A stretch of DNA of 38,392 bases from Longimicrobium sp. (GTDB lineage: Bacteria; Gemmatimonadota; Gemmatimonadetes; Longimicrobiales; Longimicrobiaceae). Under the pieces are notes generated by a model. The model made no database searches. It was not told the origin of the DNA and was given only the letters and a program-made list of their open reading frames with translations. Of the stretch, positions 17,717 through 25,575 are shown one piece after another. How positions within the stretch are numbered: position 1 is the stretch's first letter; every line of letters starts with the position of its first letter. The stretch lies in NCBI GenBank assembly GCA_036377595.1, contig DASUYB010000030.1:1-38392 (forward strand), given 5' to 3'. The position numbers were made by a program, and so were the translations under genes.

Positions 17717-18484
17717 CTATACCAGCGTGCGGCGCGACCAGATGACGATGACGCCACATCCGCTGTTGGCGCCGTTGAACTGCGGCGGGATGCGCGCGCC
17801 GTTGTAGACCTCCACCCCCTCGATCACCAGCCCCTGGAACTCGGTGTCCATGTCGCTGACGTGGCCGTAGCGGTTGCCGTCGAGGAACACGATGGGCTCG
17901 CAGTCGCCGCCGATGACCTCGGGAACGTTCTTGTTGAAGCGGATCAGCGCGCGCCCGCCGTCGCTGGTCACGTACACGCCCGGGATACGGCGCATGGCCT
18001 GCGAGAAGCGGTGCGGCGCGTCCGGCCCGAAGTCGGCGCCGGTCAGGAAGTAGCCGCTCCCCCACGAGGCCTTGCGAATGTAGAAGTCGCGCAGGAGCGG
18101 CGAGCGAGGGAGCGCCGCCGCCGTCACGTTCAGCCGGCGCAGGACCACGGGGTCGATGCCCAGCGGCACCGGCAGCGTCTGCGCCGGCGTGCCATCGACG
18201 ATGGCCTGCACGCGCGCGGTAAGGTAGCCCAGCCGCCGCGCCTCGACGGTGACGGGCCCGGCCGGGAGCGCGCGGAACACCGCCTCACCGCGCGCGTTGG
18301 TCTCGGCGCGCGCCCGGCCGGCGGTGACCATCGCGCCCGCCACAGGCTGCCCCGTGGTCGTGTCCGCGACGATGACCTTCATCTCGGTGCCGGCCTGCTG
18401 CGCGCGTGCCGCGTGCGGCATCGTCACAGCGGTGAGCGCGCAGAGCAGGGCGATATGCCACGCGCGGACGAATCGTTGCTGCAT
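17717..18484 (-). CDS. Carboxypeptidase-regulatory-like plus TonB-plug protein, no barrel
   Basis: A 255-residue exported protein. A signal peptide (about 1-29, ending ARAQQ) precedes a carboxypeptidase-regulatory-like beta-sandwich (about 33-110: MKVIVADTTTGQPVAGAMVTAGRARAETNARGEAVFRALPAGPVTVEARRLGY). A plug-like domain (about 115-255) contains RRIPGVYVTSDGGRALIRF and a C-x-P-I-V-F-L-D-G-N-R-Y stretch typical of TonB-dependent-receptor plugs. The chain stops where a 22-strand barrel would begin, so it cannot itself be a transporter. It may interact with other receptors or bind a ligand. The ATG at 18484 has GGGGAGG, partly inside a small hairpin (18494-18507). Confidence 0.72.
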   Translation of the reverse strand: MQQRFVRAWHIALLCALTAVTMPHAARAQQAGTEMKVIVADTTTGQPVAGAMVTAGRARAETNARGEAVFRALPAGPVTVEARRLGYLTARVQAIVDGTPAQTLPVPLGIDPVVLRRLNVTAAALPRSPLLRDFYIRKASWGSGYFLTGADFGPDAPHRFSQAMRRIPGVYVTSDGGRALIRFNKNVPEVIGGDCEPIVFLDGNRYGHVSDMDTEFQGLVIEGVEVYNGARIPPQFNGANSGCGVIVIWSRRTLV

Positions 18485-18602
18485 CTTAAGAAACCTCCCC
18501 GCGGAGGTGAGTCGGATGTGAGCGAGAGCGAGCCGCCGCCGTGATCGCGACGGCTCGTCACCGGAACGACTCGTCCGGAGGGATTCTGACCCGGGTGGGA
18601 GG

Positions 18603-19223
18603 CTACGGGTATGCGACGATGCGAAGCTCGTCCGCATGAACCAGCAGTTCGTGCTTCACCGGAGCCTCCATCGTGACCAGCGCAACCTGTACGCCTTCAC
18701 GCCGGGCGAATTTGACCGCAGGGATGAAGTCGCTGTCTGCCGTCACGAGTACAATTCGATCCACAATCCCCCTGCTGGCCAACCATGCGACGTCGAGACC
18801 GATCTTCATGTCGACGCGCTTCTGCTTGAGATCGGGAGAGAAGTCGTCCGCCCGCGGTGCGCGACCCGTCCTGGCGATCTCGGCCACTGAACGCTTCTTC
18901 AGCACCCAGCCGTCGAACGACAGTTCCCCCGCTCGGAACGCCACGTTGTCCTTGAGCGACAGCTCGCGGATGAACGTGGTCATCTGCGAAAAGGTAGTCG
19001 TCGCCGAGAAATCGATGTTCGTACGGGTGAGCGGGTGACACTCGGTGCCACCGAATGGCGGGCAGTGGTAGCAGTAGATGCGGAACAGCTCCTCGTCGGG
19101 AGCGCGCACGCACCGCTGGGCGAAATCGTGGACCTCGTCCGCCGTGGGAAGGCGATTCCCGACGGCGTGATACAGGCGGTGGAGAGTGAATCCGAGGTCC
19201 AGCAGCACAGCCGTCTTTTTCAT
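18603..19223 (-). CDS. NYN-domain (LabA/DUF88-type) protein
   Basis: A 206-residue protein with a PIN-like nuclease fold. MKKTAVLLDLGFTLHRLY carries the first conserved Asp; KQKRVDMKIGLDVAWLASRG and DRIVLVTADSDFIPAVKFARREGVQVALV carry the others, with T-x-D-S-D-F as the most diagnostic. NYN proteins are metal-dependent RNases or RNA-processing factors; the acidic set looks complete, so activity is plausible. A middle part (CYHCPPFGG...CHPLTR) may be a small extra loop. The ATG at 19223 has no good ribosome site. The gene sits behind its own promoter and an intrinsic terminator, so expression may depend on read-through. Confidence 0.85.
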   Translation of the reverse strand: MKKTAVLLDLGFTLHRLYHAVGNRLPTADEVHDFAQRCVRAPDEELFRIYCYHCPPFGGTECHPLTRTNIDFSATTTFSQMTTFIRELSLKDNVAFRAGELSFDGWVLKKRSVAEIARTGRAPRADDFSPDLKQKRVDMKIGLDVAWLASRGIVDRIVLVTADSDFIPAVKFARREGVQVALVTMEAPVKHELLVHADELRIVAYP

Positions 19224-19370: not shown

Positions 19371-22316
19371 TTACAGCCCTCTTCCGCGCCAGGGCTCGTT
19401 GGCTTCGAGGCAGTCCATCAGCTCGATGTAGACGCGGCGCGCGGCCTCGGTGAAGTCCTCGTCGGAGGCGTCGTCGAACGGGAGCAGCGCGGCACGGATG
19501 CGCTCGGAGAGCGAGCCGCTCTCGATCACCCCCGCGATCAACTCCATGTACGGCTGCTCGTCCTTCCTCGCCATCTTCCGCGCGGCGGCCAGCAGCTCGC
19601 GCAGGACCGCGCGGACGTCGGTGCGGCCGGTCTCGTCGCGCTCGACGGCCACGTGCGGCGCGGCGACCAGGGCGGCGCTGCCGTCGCGGATGGTGGCGCG
19701 GAAGTCCTCCACCAGCAGCTCGTGCGGCGGCAGCGTCATCTTCCCCGCCATCACCCGCCGCGACAGGTGCCTGAGCGCGGCACGCACGAACGCGGCGATC
19801 GCCACGTCCATCCGCACGCACTCCTGCGTGTCGAGCACGCGCACCTCCATCGCCCGGCGCGAGAACTTGAACACGGCGCCGCGCGCGTTCAGGAACTCGT
19901 GGCGGATGGCCGAGGTGTCGTGCGGGAAGCGGTCGAGCGCCGCGTACATCGGCCCCAGGATCCGCCGGCGATAGTCCGCGAAGCTCTCCACGTACTCGGG
20001 GACGAGCTGGCCGCAGCTCTCGGGGATGCGCGCCTGGTGCTCCAGGATCCACGCCAGCCGCGAATCGGCGTGCGGGCGCAGGTCGCCTTCGTACATCGGC
20101 GTGCTGGCGGCGATCGCGGGAAGGTAGGGGACGAGCAGCGCGGCCGCGGTGTGCATCGCCAGCGTCTCGCGCTCGTCGCCGAAGGGGAGGTTCAGGTGCG
20201 ACGCCTGCACGTTCATCCATCCGTGCGTACGCACGTCGAACAGCTTCTCGTAGGTGCCGTAGATGCGCGTCCCCGAGCGCGACCAGAGCCGGCCGTTGCG
20301 CGGATCGAACCAGGGGTGCATCCCCGTGGGCATCAGCCGCGCGTCGAACTCGTCGCGGAGGACGGCGACGAAGCGCTGGATCCCCTCGTACAGGATCTCC
20401 TCCGCCTGCCGCAGCGAGCGCACGGGCGCGGTCGTCTTCACCTCGAACACGTGGTCGGCGATCTCGTTGCTGAACCCGAGCGCGCCCAGGTGCACGTCGC
20501 TCGTCCCCCGCCCGGCCAGGATGCGGAAGGCGGGCTCCACCAGCGAAACGACGTTGAGGTCGCGGTCGACGGTGGGATATTCCAGCTCCATCCCCGCCAC
20601 CTCGAAGGCGCGGTAGTTCGCGGACCCGTTCTCGCCCGACCGCTTCACCCGCACGGGTCGGCGGATGGAGACCAGCGCGGGCTCCTCCCCCGTCCCGTTG
20701 CCGTTAGCCCCGTGTGACGGCGCGCCCTCCTCGATGCGCCGCACGAAGAAGCTCACGATGTCTTCGTAGATGGCGTTGCCGTCCTCGGCGTCCTCGTAGC
20801 CGACGTCGAGGTTGGGGTTGTCGTTGATCTCGATCACCACCGGCCCGTCCGCCGTCTCCTTGAGATCGACGCCGTAGAGCCCGTCGCCAATCAGGCGGGC
20901 GGCGCGCAGGGCGGCGGCGACCACGTCCGGCGGCGCCTCGCCGCGGGGGACGGCCTCGACCTTCCCGTAGCGCTCCGTCCCCTTCACCTCCGTGCGGATC
21001 TGCCAGTGCCCGCGCGCCATGTAGTAGCGCGACGCGAACAGGAGCCGCCCGCCCAGCACGGTGATGCGCCAGTCGAACTCCGTCGGCAGGAACTCCTGGG
21101 CGATGAGGAGCGGCGAGCGCGCGAACATCTCCTTCGAGCGCCGGCGGAACTCGTCGCGGCTGGAGATCTTGTGCACCGCCGCGGAGAAGGAGCCGTCGGG
21201 GAGCTTGATGACGAACGGGAGGCCCAGCGTCTCGAGCGCGCTCCAGCGGGTCGTCTGCGTGACGATGAGGGTGCGTGGCGTGCGGATCTCCTCGCGGCGG
21301 AGCAGCTCCTCGAGGAAGACCTTGTTGCCGCAGCGGATGATGGACTGCGGGTCGTCGACCACGGGCATGTCCAGCGCCTCGGCGCGCAGCGCGAACTGGA
21401 ACGCCGGCTCGGAGACGCCGGTGAGCGCGCGGATGAAGAGCGCGTCGTACTCCGGCAGCTTGCGCATGTCGCCCAGCCCGATGCGCGCGACGTGCACGTT
21501 CTGTCGCGCGGCCACGCGCTCCAGCCGGTCGATGGTCTCCGGCGACGAGGGGCTGAACGGGTCGGCGGGGTCGACTAGGACGGCGATGGAGGCGCGCACC
21601 GTCTCGCGCGGCGCCTCGCGGCCGCGGCGGAGGACGCGCGCCTCGTCGCCCAGCGCGCGCGCCAGCTCCGCGTGCTCGTCCGCCGACAGGTGGTGCGGGG
21701 GGACGGCGGCCACCTGCGTGACCTTCCACTCCTCGTCCTCGTGCACCAGCTGCAGCCGCAGCACGGGCGCCGGCCACTCGCGGTAGACGGCCAGCGCCGC
21801 GCGCTGGAAGCGCGGATCGGCGCAGGTGCCCAGGTAGACCAACGCCTCGACGTACTCCCCCTCGCCCGCCGGCCGGCACTCCCCCTCCTCGCCGCGGACC
21901 AGGGGGACGGGGAAGTGGTGGCGCGGCTCCTCCTCCTCGACCTCCTCGCCTTCTCCTGGATGGAGATCGGGCGGCGGGAGATGGAGCTCGCGGCGGCGGA
22001 CACGCATCTCCGCCGCGTCAATGGTGGCCACGCCGGCCTCCTGCAGCGCGCGGAAGCGCCCATACGGCTCCTGCAGCCCCTCGCACGTCTCCACCGTGGG
22101 GATCACCTGCTGCCGCCGCGCGTCCGCGAGGAGGGAGACGTAGTAGCCTCGGCTGCGGTAGCGGGTGGAGCGGCAGAGGTTGACGACGACGGCGCGCGGA
22201 TCGGCCAGGGCCTCGCCACCTTCGAGATACCGGTCGGCGTCGACGACGGTGCCGGCCGGGAGCCCGGCCGCGTCGCGGGGATCGGAGACGACGACGATGA
22301 CCCTTCTGCGGTTCAC
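19371..22316 (-). CDS. Fused RLAN / ATP-grasp / GCS2 amidoligase
   Basis: A 981-residue multidomain ligase. Residues about 40-240 fit the RimK-like ATP-grasp N-terminal (RLAN) domain (VVVNLCRSTRYRSRGYYVSLLADARRQQVIP), with an acidic insert at 120-150. Residues about 245-530 are an ATP-grasp: PFVIKLPDGSFSAAV, then VVIEINDNPNLD (493-504) for the metal. After a loose linker, residues about 570-960 are a glutamate-cysteine-ligase type 2 (GCS2) domain: FEVAGMELEYPTVDRDLNVV, then MPTGMHPW and WMNVQASHLNLPF. Both catalytic domains form amide bonds through an acyl-phosphate, so the protein may make two successive ligations. The start is GTG at 22316, overlapping the C39-like stop by GTGA. Product unknown. 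No close characterised relative is recognised. Confidence 0.82.
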   Translation of the reverse strand: MNRRRVIVVVSDPRDAAGLPAGTVVDADRYLEGGEALADPRAVVVNLCRSTRYRSRGYYVSLLADARRQQVIPTVETCEGLQEPYGRFRALQEAGVATIDAAEMRVRRRELHLPPPDLHPGEGEEVEEEEPRHHFPVPLVRGEEGECRPAGEGEYVEALVYLGTCADPRFQRAALAVYREWPAPVLRLQLVHEDEEWKVTQVAAVPPHHLSADEHAELARALGDEARVLRRGREAPRETVRASIAVLVDPADPFSPSSPETIDRLERVAARQNVHVARIGLGDMRKLPEYDALFIRALTGVSEPAFQFALRAEALDMPVVDDPQSIIRCGNKVFLEELLRREEIRTPRTLIVTQTTRWSALETLGLPFVIKLPDGSFSAAVHKISSRDEFRRRSKEMFARSPLLIAQEFLPTEFDWRITVLGGRLLFASRYYMARGHWQIRTEVKGTERYGKVEAVPRGEAPPDVVAAALRAARLIGDGLYGVDLKETADGPVVIEINDNPNLDVGYEDAEDGNAIYEDIVSFFVRRIEEGAPSHGANGNGTGEEPALVSIRRPVRVKRSGENGSANYRAFEVAGMELEYPTVDRDLNVVSLVEPAFRILAGRGTSDVHLGALGFSNEIADHVFEVKTTAPVRSLRQAEEILYEGIQRFVAVLRDEFDARLMPTGMHPWFDPRNGRLWSRSGTRIYGTYEKLFDVRTHGWMNVQASHLNLPFGDERETLAMHTAAALLVPYLPAIAASTPMYEGDLRPHADSRLAWILEHQARIPESCGQLVPEYVESFADYRRRILGPMYAALDRFPHDTSAIRHEFLNARGAVFKFSRRAMEVRVLDTQECVRMDVAIAAFVRAALRHLSRRVMAGKMTLPPHELLVEDFRATIRDGSAALVAAPHVAVERDETGRTDVRAVLRELLAAARKMARKDEQPYMELIAGVIESGSLSERIRAALLPFDDASDEDFTEAARRVYIELMDCLEANEPWRGRGL

Positions 22317-23104
22317 GCGCGCGCCTCCCCGGCGGGCCAGACTTCCAGCAGCACCGCGTCGTAGGTCACGTCGCCCAGCAGGATGGCGTTGGTCAGGCGG
22401 TCGGCATCCACCACCAGCTTCTCCGCGTCACCCGGCTCGGGAGGGATCTGCTCGAAGGGGTCGAGGACGATCAGCCGGCGGCCCCACTGCTCGTAGCCGC
22501 TGATCACCACGAAGTGGCCGGTGGGCTCGCCGCGCACGTCGTCGTCCACCAGCCGGTCGGTGACGGGGTCCCACCGCTCGCGCGAGTAGCGGTAGAGATA
22601 GGTGGCGCTGAGGCCGGCCAGGATGGGGTGCTCGCGGTCGATGATGGACTTGAGCAGCCCCGGCGTGAGCTCCGCGAACGCCAGCTCGCCGCCGAGCTCC
22701 AGGAAGTGGATGTAGGCCTGCGCCGCGCGCAGCCGCTTGGCGTCGGCGAGATAGGGGAAGCGCAGGTGGATCTTCTCCGCGAGCTGCGCGGGGGGGAGAT
22801 CGACCCAGGTGGGATCGAAGATGCGCAGGTCGTACGAGTAGATGCGCGCGTGGAAGCCGCGCCGCAGCGCCGAGATGCCCAGGAACACGGCCAGCGTGCC
22901 GCCGTCCTCGTTGCGCTCGAGCGAGGCGATGATCTGGTCGACGTCCACGTCTAGCCCGTAGAAGGAGTAGACCTTCCGCAGGCAGGTGGGGCCGCAGGTC
23001 ACGTCGTCGGGCTGCACGAAGCGCTGCACGGGCAGCTCGTGCGCCGCGCGGGCCACGAACTCGGTGCGCTCGTCGACCGCCGGCAGCGGGGGTGCGGATG
23101 CCAT
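22313..23104 (-). CDS. C39-like papain-fold peptidase or acyltransferase
   Basis: A 263-residue protein of the C39-like cysteine peptidase group. The catalytic Cys is C37 in DDVTCGPTCLRKVYSFYG, the His is H198 in PTGHFVVISGYE, and the Asp is D216 in LIVLDPFEQ, so the triad is complete. No signal peptide or membrane part is present, so it should act in the cytoplasm. Its gene is translationally coupled to the amidoligase, which suggests that it hydrolyses, transfers or trims the amide product or a tagged protein. The ATG at 23104 has AAGGAGACAG at good spacing; an upstream in-frame start would add unrelated residues. Confidence 0.8.
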   Translation of the reverse strand: MASAPPLPAVDERTEFVARAAHELPVQRFVQPDDVTCGPTCLRKVYSFYGLDVDVDQIIASLERNEDGGTLAVFLGISALRRGFHARIYSYDLRIFDPTWVDLPPAQLAEKIHLRFPYLADAKRLRAAQAYIHFLELGGELAFAELTPGLLKSIIDREHPILAGLSATYLYRYSRERWDPVTDRLVDDDVRGEPTGHFVVISGYEQWGRRLIVLDPFEQIPPEPGDAEKLVVDADRLTNAILLGDVTYDAVLLEVWPAGEARA

Positions 23105-23503: not shown

Positions 23504-25405
23504 CTACGGCCTGACCGCGCGCGGGATCTCGCGCACGCGCGGGCCGCTCTCCACGCGCAGCACGTAGGCGCCGGTGGCGCGCTCGCCCACCGAGTTGGCC
23601 ACGATCACGTACGGACCCGAGTGCGGCAGGGTGAGCGTGAGGCCCGCGTCGGTTTCGCCCAGCGAGTCGTCGTCGTGCTCGTACAGCGGGCCGTTGGGGT
23701 CGTTCACCACCAGCCACGCGTCGAAGTCGCCGGACTGCAGACTGATGGTGATCCGCTCGCCCGCGCGGCCGGTGTACACGTACGCGTCCATGTAGCTGTT
23801 GTCGTCGCGCAGCATGTCGCTGGTCGTCAGGCGCCCGCTCACCCCGGCGCCCGCACGGATCGCGGGCAGCCGCCGCCAGTCGAGCCCGGTGATGGACACG
23901 CCGCGGGTGTTGCCGCCGCCCGGACGCGCCGATCCCGTGCCGCGCTCCACCGACAGCGTGTACGCGCCCACGTCGCGCTGCCCCACCGTGTTGGCGGCGA
24001 TCAGGTAGCGCCCCGTGCGCGGCAGCGTGACGGTGATGCGCGAATCGTTGCCGCCGCCGCCGTCGTCGTCGTGCAGGTCCAGCCCGCTGCCGCCCGGCTC
24101 CATCAGCACCAGCCACGAGTCGAACGCGCTGGAGCGCATGGTCACCGTGATCTGCTCGCCCGCGCGGCCGTTGTAGATGTACGGGTCGGCGTAGGTGTTG
24201 TCGCTGCGCAGGAAGTCGTTGCGCGAGATGGTGCCGGCGACCGTCTGCCCCAGCGCGATGCGCGGCGCGCGGCTCAGGTCCATGTCCTCCAGGTCGCCCT
24301 CGCCGCCGCCGCCGTTGTTGTCGTCGTTGCTGCTCACCCGGCCGCTGCCGCGCTCCACGCTGAGCGTGTAGGCGCCGGTGGAGCCCTCGGACATGGAGTT
24401 GGCCACGATCAGGTACTGCCCGCTGCGCGGCAGCGTCACCGTCAGCTGCGAGTCGAGGTTGCCACCGCTGTCGTCGTCGTGCTCGCGCAGGCCGCCCGAC
24501 GGGTCGGTCATCACCAGCCACGAGTCGAACGCGCTGGAGCGCAGCGTCACCGTGATCTGCTCGCCCGCGCGGCCGCTGTAGACGTAGGTGTCGGCGAACG
24601 AGCCGTCGGGACGGCGGAAGTCGTTCGTGCTCAGCCGCCCCTGCACCGTCTGCCCCATGGCGATGCGGGGGAGCGAGCCCGGGTTCAGGGCGTCGACGTC
24701 GCGCGTCCGCGTGGAGCCGCGCTCGCCGCCGAAGCGCAGGTCGCCGGTGAAGGCCACGCGCCCCGGCTGCGACTGCGTCAGCCGCGTGAGCTCGGTGACA
24801 GGAACGGCGAAGTTCAGGTTCTGCCCCTCCGAGAGCACCGCCACGCTCACGCCCACCACCTCGCCGCGCATGTTCAGCACCGGGCCGCCCGACGAGCCGT
24901 GGCTGATGGGCGCGCTGATCTGCACCAGCGTCTTCCCCTCCACGCGGCGGATGGCGCTCACGATTCCCGTCGACACCGTGTTCGACAGCCCCTCGGGCGC
25001 GCCGATCACCACGATGGCCTCGCCCACCTCGGGAAGGCCGCGGGCCAGCGGGAGGGTGGCGGGGGGATTGGTGATGCGCGGCAGGATGGCCAGGTCGGCC
25101 GCGGGGCCGCCGACCGCCTCGGCGTAGGTCGCGGTGCCCAGCCGGCGCTCGTCCTGGGTGACGGCCTCCACGCGCGCCGAGCCCTCGACCACGTGCCGGT
25201 TGGTGGCGATGCGGCCGTCGGGAAGGAAGAAGCCGCTGCCGAGGCCGGTCTGCCGCCCCGACCCGTTGTAGGTGTTCAGGGTGATCACCGCCGGGCTGGC
25301 GCGGCGGGTGATAGTGACCACGTCGGGCTGCGCGGCCGCGCGGGCGGCGGGAAGCAGCGCGAGCGCGAGCACGACCGGGCTGGTCTTGAGGAAGCGTGGC
25401 ATCAT
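23504..25405 (-). CDS. Trypsin-like serine protease with three PPC domains
   Basis: A 633-residue exported protein. The signal peptide (about 1-26) is followed by an HtrA/trypsin-type domain (about 35-235) with the triad H71 (ATNRHVVEG), D104 (AADLAIL) and S172 (HGSSGGPV). There is no PDZ domain. Three pre-peptidase C-terminal (PPC) domains follow at about 250-355, 380-490 and 515-625, each with a Y-[VI]-Y-x-G-R-A-G-E core, an F-D-[SA]-W-L-V strand and a D-D-D calcium-like loop. PPC domains usually aid folding or secretion and here are likely outside the cytoplasm. Two adjacent ATG codons exist at 25405 and 25402; the first is used. Confidence 0.9.
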   Translation of the reverse strand: MMPRFLKTSPVVLALALLPAARAAAQPDVVTITRRASPAVITLNTYNGSGRQTGLGSGFFLPDGRIATNRHVVEGSARVEAVTQDERRLGTATYAEAVGGPAADLAILPRITNPPATLPLARGLPEVGEAIVVIGAPEGLSNTVSTGIVSAIRRVEGKTLVQISAPISHGSSGGPVLNMRGEVVGVSVAVLSEGQNLNFAVPVTELTRLTQSQPGRVAFTGDLRFGGERGSTRTRDVDALNPGSLPRIAMGQTVQGRLSTNDFRRPDGSFADTYVYSGRAGEQITVTLRSSAFDSWLVMTDPSGGLREHDDDSGGNLDSQLTVTLPRSGQYLIVANSMSEGSTGAYTLSVERGSGRVSSNDDNNGGGGEGDLEDMDLSRAPRIALGQTVAGTISRNDFLRSDNTYADPYIYNGRAGEQITVTMRSSAFDSWLVLMEPGGSGLDLHDDDGGGGNDSRITVTLPRTGRYLIAANTVGQRDVGAYTLSVERGTGSARPGGGNTRGVSITGLDWRRLPAIRAGAGVSGRLTTSDMLRDDNSYMDAYVYTGRAGERITISLQSGDFDAWLVVNDPNGPLYEHDDDSLGETDAGLTLTLPHSGPYVIVANSVGERATGAYVLRVESGPRVREIPRAVRP

Positions 25406-25575
25406 CGCTGGAAACTCCCGGGCGGGCGCCATGAGCTGGAAGGGAACCGCTGCGCACCCAATCTGCGCGCGGGCGCGGGAGCCGTCCAGTGGATGGGCAC
25501 AGGCCGTCCACCGCGCCATTGTCCTAACCCGTGGACGGGGGATTCTGTTCCGCGTGCGATCCACCACGGGACGAA

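Follow-up and report, generated by a model that had tools for sequence, protein, structure and literature searches.

What do two overlapping genes, one encoding a papain-fold protein of the C39 type and the other a single chain in which an RLAN/ATP-grasp ligase is followed by a GCS2 ligase, make or modify in Longimicrobium sp. (Gemmatimonadota)? The pair lies on contig DASUYB010000030.1 of assembly GCA_036377595.1, whose positions 1 to 38,392 (38,392 nucleotides [nt]; here, the window) were analyzed. Our analysis points to a cytoplasmic two-step, non-ribosomal amide-ligase system, in which two successive ATP-dependent ligations would build a small glutamyl peptide or a glutamyl-capped metabolite and the C39-fold enzyme would hydrolyze or transfer part of it; we assign this reading a probability of about one half. 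A preliminary description, made from the sequence alone, had proposed two makers of amide bonds and a trimming or transferring enzyme. In view of the folds, residues, and operon, this remains the best reading, whereas its substrate and product can be named only conditionally. The two open reading frames (ORFs) of that description, with their coordinates, lengths, and 4-nt GTGA overlap, were all reproduced, and its accounts of a 981-residue RLAN, ATP-grasp, and GCS2 fusion and of a complete Cys-His-Asp C39-like protein without a signal peptide agree with the results that follow.

All three domains of the fusion score above their Pfam cutoffs, namely, RLAN (PF14401; E=2e-28, 99 bits versus 25), RimK ATP-grasp (PF08443; E=2e-6, 28 bits versus 21), and GCS2 (amino acids [aa] 575 to 850; E=3e-18, 66.5 bits versus 21). 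In a structure search with the AlphaFold model (mean predicted local distance difference test [pLDDT] score, 88.9), aa 242 to 531 fold like LysX, ArgX, and RimK (Z 26 to 28), and aa 566 to 971 fold like YbdK (Z 38.6), plant glutamate-cysteine ligase (Z 33.6), and GshF (Z 24.6). The catalytic residues of both ligase parts are intact. The ATP/Mg-binding residues K332, K371, D484, E496, and N498 are present in 9/9 fused, 25/25 GCS2-type, and 46/46 GNAT-type sequences (80 counted; the types are defined below), and E27, E29, E68, E75, K77, H117, R262, E274, and D279 of the GCS2 part are invariant in 24 sequences, its motifs aligning with GIELE, MLELAT, GTHPF, and VEVRVMD of YbdK. With the NCBIfam models for RimK, LysX, glutamate-cysteine ligase, and YbdK, the fusion scores far under every equivalog cutoff (for the RimK S6-glutamate ligase models, 27.5 bits versus 331 with NF007764 and 71 versus 143.4 with TIGR00768); it is therefore a member of these ligase superfamilies but no characterized equivalog. 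An acidic insert in the RLAN domain (about aa 110 to 150) is not found in most relatives whose ligases are encoded by separate genes (here, split).

The 263-aa partner matches Peptidase_C39_2 (PF13529; E=8e-10, 39.8 bits versus a cutoff of 24), and Q31, C37, H197, and D215, which form a papain-fold Gln-Cys-His-Asp active site, are invariant across 33 C39 sequences. The best structure matches of its AlphaFold model (mean pLDDT, 89.4) are tied between phytochelatin synthase Alr0975 with glutathione (Z 16.9) and C39 peptidase domains (6mpz; Z 16.9), and thus the fold alone does not tell cutting from transfer. The Pfam search gave no match to phytochelatin synthase (PF05023) up to E=0.1, and the C39 bacteriocin-processing peptidase family (PF03412) scores just under its cutoff (21.8 versus 22). 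Hydropathy reveals no signal peptide or transmembrane segment in the protein (best 11-aa value, 0.69 in the first 45 aa).

The gene pair is not a chance arrangement of ORFs, because homologues of both genes occur in the same order at 68 to 70% identity and because the differences follow codon position. Fractions differing at positions 1, 2, and 3 are 0.21 to 0.23, 0.19, and 0.37 to 0.38 for the fusion gene and 0.18 to 0.21, 0.19 to 0.20, and 0.38 to 0.41 for the C39 gene; both genes are under purifying selection. The same 4-nt overlap between the C39 and RLAN genes exists in about one-third of the related operons.

Our analysis shows a widespread system, most often with the two ligases unfused. 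RLAN/ATP-grasp systems are present in 11 of 150 sampled genomes of the window's phylum (about 7%), in 23/198 genomes of the Roseivirga phylum sample (12%), and in 56/299 of the Noviherbaspirillum phylum sample (19%). When one genome was scanned for each species, at least 578 relatives of the RLAN/ATP-grasp protein were obtained, of which the best 80 were kept, so that the set leans towards the query; with the loci of the window's phylum, these make up a first set of 89 distinct loci, which were classified by profile searches. A second set was drawn evenly from two other phyla, three of its GCS2 entries repeating loci already counted. The operon C39-RLAN/ATP-grasp-GCS2 is found in at least 10 phyla, mostly as three coupled genes. 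In the first set, GCS2 is beside or fused to the RLAN/ATP-grasp ligase in 34 loci (GCS2 type), a GNAT gene is present in 46 (GNAT type), 9 have neither, and none has both; the sole GNAT match beside a GCS2 gene (E=8e-4, in the Tectomicrobia locus L057) was not counted. The second set contains 18 GCS2, 34 GNAT, and 2 neither entries and again none with both. The window pair has the three modules in order, co-directional, and without GNAT.

In 32 of the 34 GCS2-type loci and in 18/18 GCS2 entries of the second set, the gene immediately upstream, on the same strand, is one for C39, and hence the two genes of the window do co-occur elsewhere. Among the GNAT-type loci, a single ORF encodes both GNAT and a C39-like domain (PF11814) in 30/46, and in 16/46 no C39 was found. 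Because C39 is near-constant in the GCS2 type and dispensable in part of the GNAT type, its target is probably one that only the GCS2 product, or the regulation of that product, provides. No residue of the RLAN/ATP-grasp protein tells the two types apart at 85%, and at 70% those that do are only mild. Since this ligase is nearly the same with either partner, GCS2 and GNAT are probably alternative sources of the acyl part (glutamyl, or acetyl/acyl) for one common ligation. That they never occur together is what one would predict if either can provide the acyl part for extension by the shared ligase; the strict alternation points to a single ligation step in common, served by two routes of acyl supply.

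The preliminary description had proposed a survey for conserved third genes, such as one for a precursor peptide. Further partners exist (as a fourth gene, an N-formylglutamate amidohydrolase [FGase]-like gene and, in the sister type, GNAT in place of GCS2), and both go beyond what had been expected, but no conserved precursor peptide or small carrier gene was found beside the operon, ORFs shorter than about 80 aa not having been searched systematically. All-against-all clustering of neighbors was swamped by antisense shadow ORFs of the GC-rich DNA and missed the FGase gene, which was found when neighbors were picked by codon usage. Of the 20 split loci that extend 750 nt or more downstream, 14 have the FGase-like gene (PF05013) downstream of GCS2, and a truncated copy exists additionally in L024; five of the six split loci without it are from Planctomycetota. 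In the second set, its first approximately 80 residues are visible in 10/18 GCS2 entries, although these loci end about 250 nt past GCS2. It is absent from all 46 GNAT-type loci. Four Bacteriovoracaceae loci of that type (L052, L094, L107, and L110) have an aspartoacylase gene, above the equivalog cutoff, beside the RLAN/ATP-grasp gene. The FGase and aspartoacylase families both act on N-acyl acidic amino acids. The occurrence of the one by GCS2 and of the other in the GNAT type therefore suggests N-acyl or glutamyl amino-acid chemistry and is the main hint of glutamate-like substrates.

Among the fused relatives, the FGase-like gene is divergent and upstream in L037 and elsewhere in the genome in at least two others; no match was obtained in the whole genome of the window or in those of four close fused relatives, all draft assemblies. 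An FGase-like ORF in L038 resembles an ordinary HutG and was excluded from the system. Because the gene is common in split operons and was not found in the window's genome, the window probably represents a reduced form of a system commonly having four genes, from which the FGase gene was lost.

The nine fused ligases form one clade in both the RLAN/ATP-grasp tree (Shimodaira-Hasegawa-like approximate likelihood ratio test [SH-aLRT], 97) and the GCS2 tree (99), the latter including the other GCS2 proteins of the genome, having very long branches, and being used only for this monophyly. Six members are from Gemmatimonadota (window included), one is from a Planctomycetota metagenome-assembled genome, and two are from Myxococcota metagenome-assembled genomes. 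L024, from a genome of the window's class, adjoins the clade and has an ordinary split operon. The fusion thus has a single origin. In split operons, the RLAN/ATP-grasp stop and GCS2 start overlap by 4 nt in 18/26 cases (an upper estimate, as start choice is biased towards -4), and loss of the stop codon within such an overlap would give the fusion. Residues 298 and 305, which lie close to a conserved residue of the ATP-grasp fold, Arg296, are Leu and Ala/Ser, respectively, in 9/9 fused proteins, and both are Thr in 71/71 others, which suggests a changed substrate in the fused clade.

We propose that the GCS2 domain would convert a carboxylate (glutamate, through its gamma-carboxylate, is the likeliest donor) to an acyl-phosphate and couple it to an amine, and that the RLAN/ATP-grasp domain would activate a second carboxylate and add another amino acid or amine. 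The C39-fold cysteine enzyme would then act through a thioester, hydrolyzing or transferring an acyl or aminoacyl part of this product, which would be a small glutamyl peptide or a metabolite with a glutamyl cap. The fusion fixes the supply of the two ligases at 1:1 and may channel an intermediate; it also offers a convenient single chain for assaying both ligation steps together. We infer the order of ligation, glutamate as the donor, the small-molecule product, and the C39 role. A small-molecule acceptor is preferred, both because no conserved carrier or precursor gene was found and because small molecules are the usual substrates of GCS2 and GNAT relatives.

Several points weigh against this proposal. 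(i) With scores far below the equivalog cutoffs, glutamate and cysteine are no more than candidate substrates. (ii) The GCS2 and GNAT types are separated by a single change in the tree of the 89 RLAN/ATP-grasp proteins, so that their mutual exclusion reflects one old split rather than many independent tests. (iii) The predicted template modeling (pTM) score of the fusion model is 0.65, and the relative domain arrangement is uncertain. (iv) The searchable literature contains no mention of PF14401 and no product for RLAN/ATP-grasp systems, frequent as they are (about 7 to 19% of sampled genomes in three phyla). (v) RimK-type ligases also modify proteins, and hence the acceptor could be a protein.

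The last point leads to the rival that survives best, although we consider it rather unlikely: reversible tagging of proteins or peptides, in which RLAN/ATP-grasp (as RimK on ribosomal protein S6) and GCS2 would add amino acids to a protein end or side chain and C39, with FGase in relatives, would remove them. Functionally characterized GCS2 relatives use free amino acids or metabolites, the GNAT version suits small-molecule capping at least equally well, and the search for a small carrier protein or precursor gene beside the operon was negative, as stated above. On the other hand, the nearest characterized ATP-grasp folds include RimK as well as LysX and ArgX, which work on a protein carrier, and sets of ligases and hydrolases match a write/erase logic; RimK/RimB and RloABC each combine an ATP-grasp ligase with a counteracting protease (PMC12239564).

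A glutathione- or phytochelatin-like thiol pathway seems still less probable. Here, GCS2 would make a gamma-Glu-Cys-like dipeptide, ATP-grasp would add a third residue, and C39 would be a phytochelatin-synthase-like transpeptidase or hydrolase. Its appeal lies in the structural match of the C39 model to Alr0975, a papain-fold enzyme acting on glutathione, in the resemblance of the GCS2 part to plant glutamate-cysteine ligase and GshF, and in GshF itself (3ln6 and 3ln7), a single chain whose glutamate-cysteine-ligase-fold domain and ATP-grasp ligase form two amide bonds in succession. However, the tie with C39 peptidase domains and the lack of a PF05023 match give phytochelatin synthase no preference, and the fusion differs from GshF in having ATP-grasp first, a GCS2 rather than a GshA-type domain, an extra RLAN domain, and a C39 partner. 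It scores below all glutathione-related equivalog cutoffs, cysteine specificity is without support, and presence in 11/150 genomes of the phylum is too sporadic for a housekeeping thiol. The host also has another thiol route: an EgtA-like GCS2 gene directly follows an EgtD-like methyltransferase gene (L114; G000:C68, approximately 41965 to 42675), a probable ergothioneine locus. An extended version, in which the pair would serve solely to make a glutathione-like glutamyl tripeptide not yet described, with C39 as a phytochelatin-synthase-like transpeptidase and the fused clade on a new substrate (Thr298 to Leu, Thr305 to Ala/Ser, and FGase loss), would be equally speculative. A bacteriocin/RiPP or other secondary-metabolite cluster, in which C39 would trim a leader and the ligases decorate a ribosomal precursor, is highly improbable, since the C39 family name and the making of graspetides by other ATP-grasp ligases (PMC8939145) are outweighed by the absence of an ABC transporter fused or adjacent to C39 in the window or conserved beside the operons of relatives, by the negative precursor search within the size limit given above, and by an operon common to many phyla with unrelated neighbors.

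Returning to the proposed two-ligation system, we compared it with known ones. Synthesis of N-acetylglutaminylglutamine amide (NAGGN; synthetase TIGR03103, GNAT-ATP-grasp) likewise combines an acyl-capping enzyme with an ATP-grasp ligase and gives a capped dipeptide, but it is GNAT based with a different ATP-grasp family; the sister-type GNAT matches TIGR03103 weakly (E=6e-8). NAGGN synthesis also includes a glutamine amidotransferase. Closer is the GNAT-DUF3335 (C39-like) and RLAN/RimK pair of, e.g., Marinobacter and Oceanimonas, which has the same RLAN/ATP-grasp ligase, distinguished by almost no residues, and a C39-like partner, but has GNAT for GCS2, a PF11814 domain usually fused to GNAT, and no FGase gene. 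PMC4431377, citing Iyer et al. 2009, describes earlier sightings of operons that join ATP-grasp ligases to COOH-NH2 ligases or GNATs and proposes successive ligation or acyl capping, and DUF3335-GNAT fusions are noted in PMC10318531 with the same citation. The amidoligase neighborhoods so described, in which an ATP-grasp ligase is accompanied by a papain-fold protein and by either GNAT or another ligase (COOH-NH2 ligase/GCS2), resemble the gene pair of the window, which differs in having both ligases in one polypeptide, no FGase gene, and two otherwise invariant ATP-grasp residues changed. Linked ligases and GNAT caps are thus already known; the fused form without FGase and with an altered ATP-grasp motif appears to be new.

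Features of the gene pair in the window (coordinates are window positions)
Feature	Position	Strand	Remarks
C39-like protein (papain-fold cysteine peptidase/acyltransferase-like), 263 aa	22313-23104	-	ATG start; Q31, C37, H197, D215 invariant
RLAN/ATP-grasp/GCS2 fusion, 981 aa	19371-22316	-	GTG start
GTGA overlap, 4 nt, of C39 gene stop and fusion gene GTG start (translational coupling)	22313-22316	-	sequence
AAGGAG Shine-Dalgarno-like site, C39 gene	23113-23118	-	8 nt 5' of ATG
GGGGAGG Shine-Dalgarno-like site, fusion gene	22324-22330	-	7 nt 5' of GTG; within C39 gene
RLAN domain, Pfam match aa 28-220	21657-22235	-	acidic insert, about aa 110-150
RimK/LysX-like ATP-grasp ligase domain, aa 242-531	20724-21593	-	K332, K371, D484, E496, N498
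Low-confidence linker, aa 532-572	20601-20723	-	position matches ATGA/GTGA stop-start overlap of split relatives
GCS2 carboxylate-amine ligase domain, aa 573-971	19404-20600	-	YbdK/glutamate-cysteine-ligase fold

On the same strand, the pair is flanked upstream by a gene for a secreted trypsin-like (HtrA-type) protease with three PPC stretches (23504 to 25567) and downstream by genes for an NYN-domain nuclease-like protein (18603 to 19223) and a carboxypeptidase-regulatory-like domain protein (17717 to 18637). None of these is conserved near relatives, and they were rejected as members of the system. Elsewhere in the same genome, a YbdK-like GCS2 gene (404 aa; L112; G000:C29, 52310 to 53143) is downstream of an ATP-grasp-like ORF with the motif VLKPNDDYGGRGI and looks like the permuted ATP-grasp and GCS2 systems linked to Anbu-type operons.

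Among the relatives, the GCS2-type operon of the Tectomicrobia locus L057 is preceded, at 1.8 kb and 27 nt, by genes for a D-Ala-D-Ala-ligase-like ATP-grasp protein and a transporter-like protein, possibly for a further ligation step and an exporter. Eight loci (L042, L045, L065, L067, L084, L092, L095, and L111), GNAT type except for one unclassified, have in common an ABC transporter with ABC_membrane_2 (PF06472), the family of SbmA/BacA-like peptide importers. In one genome of the Roseivirga phylum (L144/L146), the RLAN/ATP-grasp and GCS2 genes of a GCS2-type operon are broken by apparent frameshifts, apparently a decaying copy or an assembly error. Four genomes (G152, G410, G414, and G498) have two RLAN/ATP-grasp genes each.

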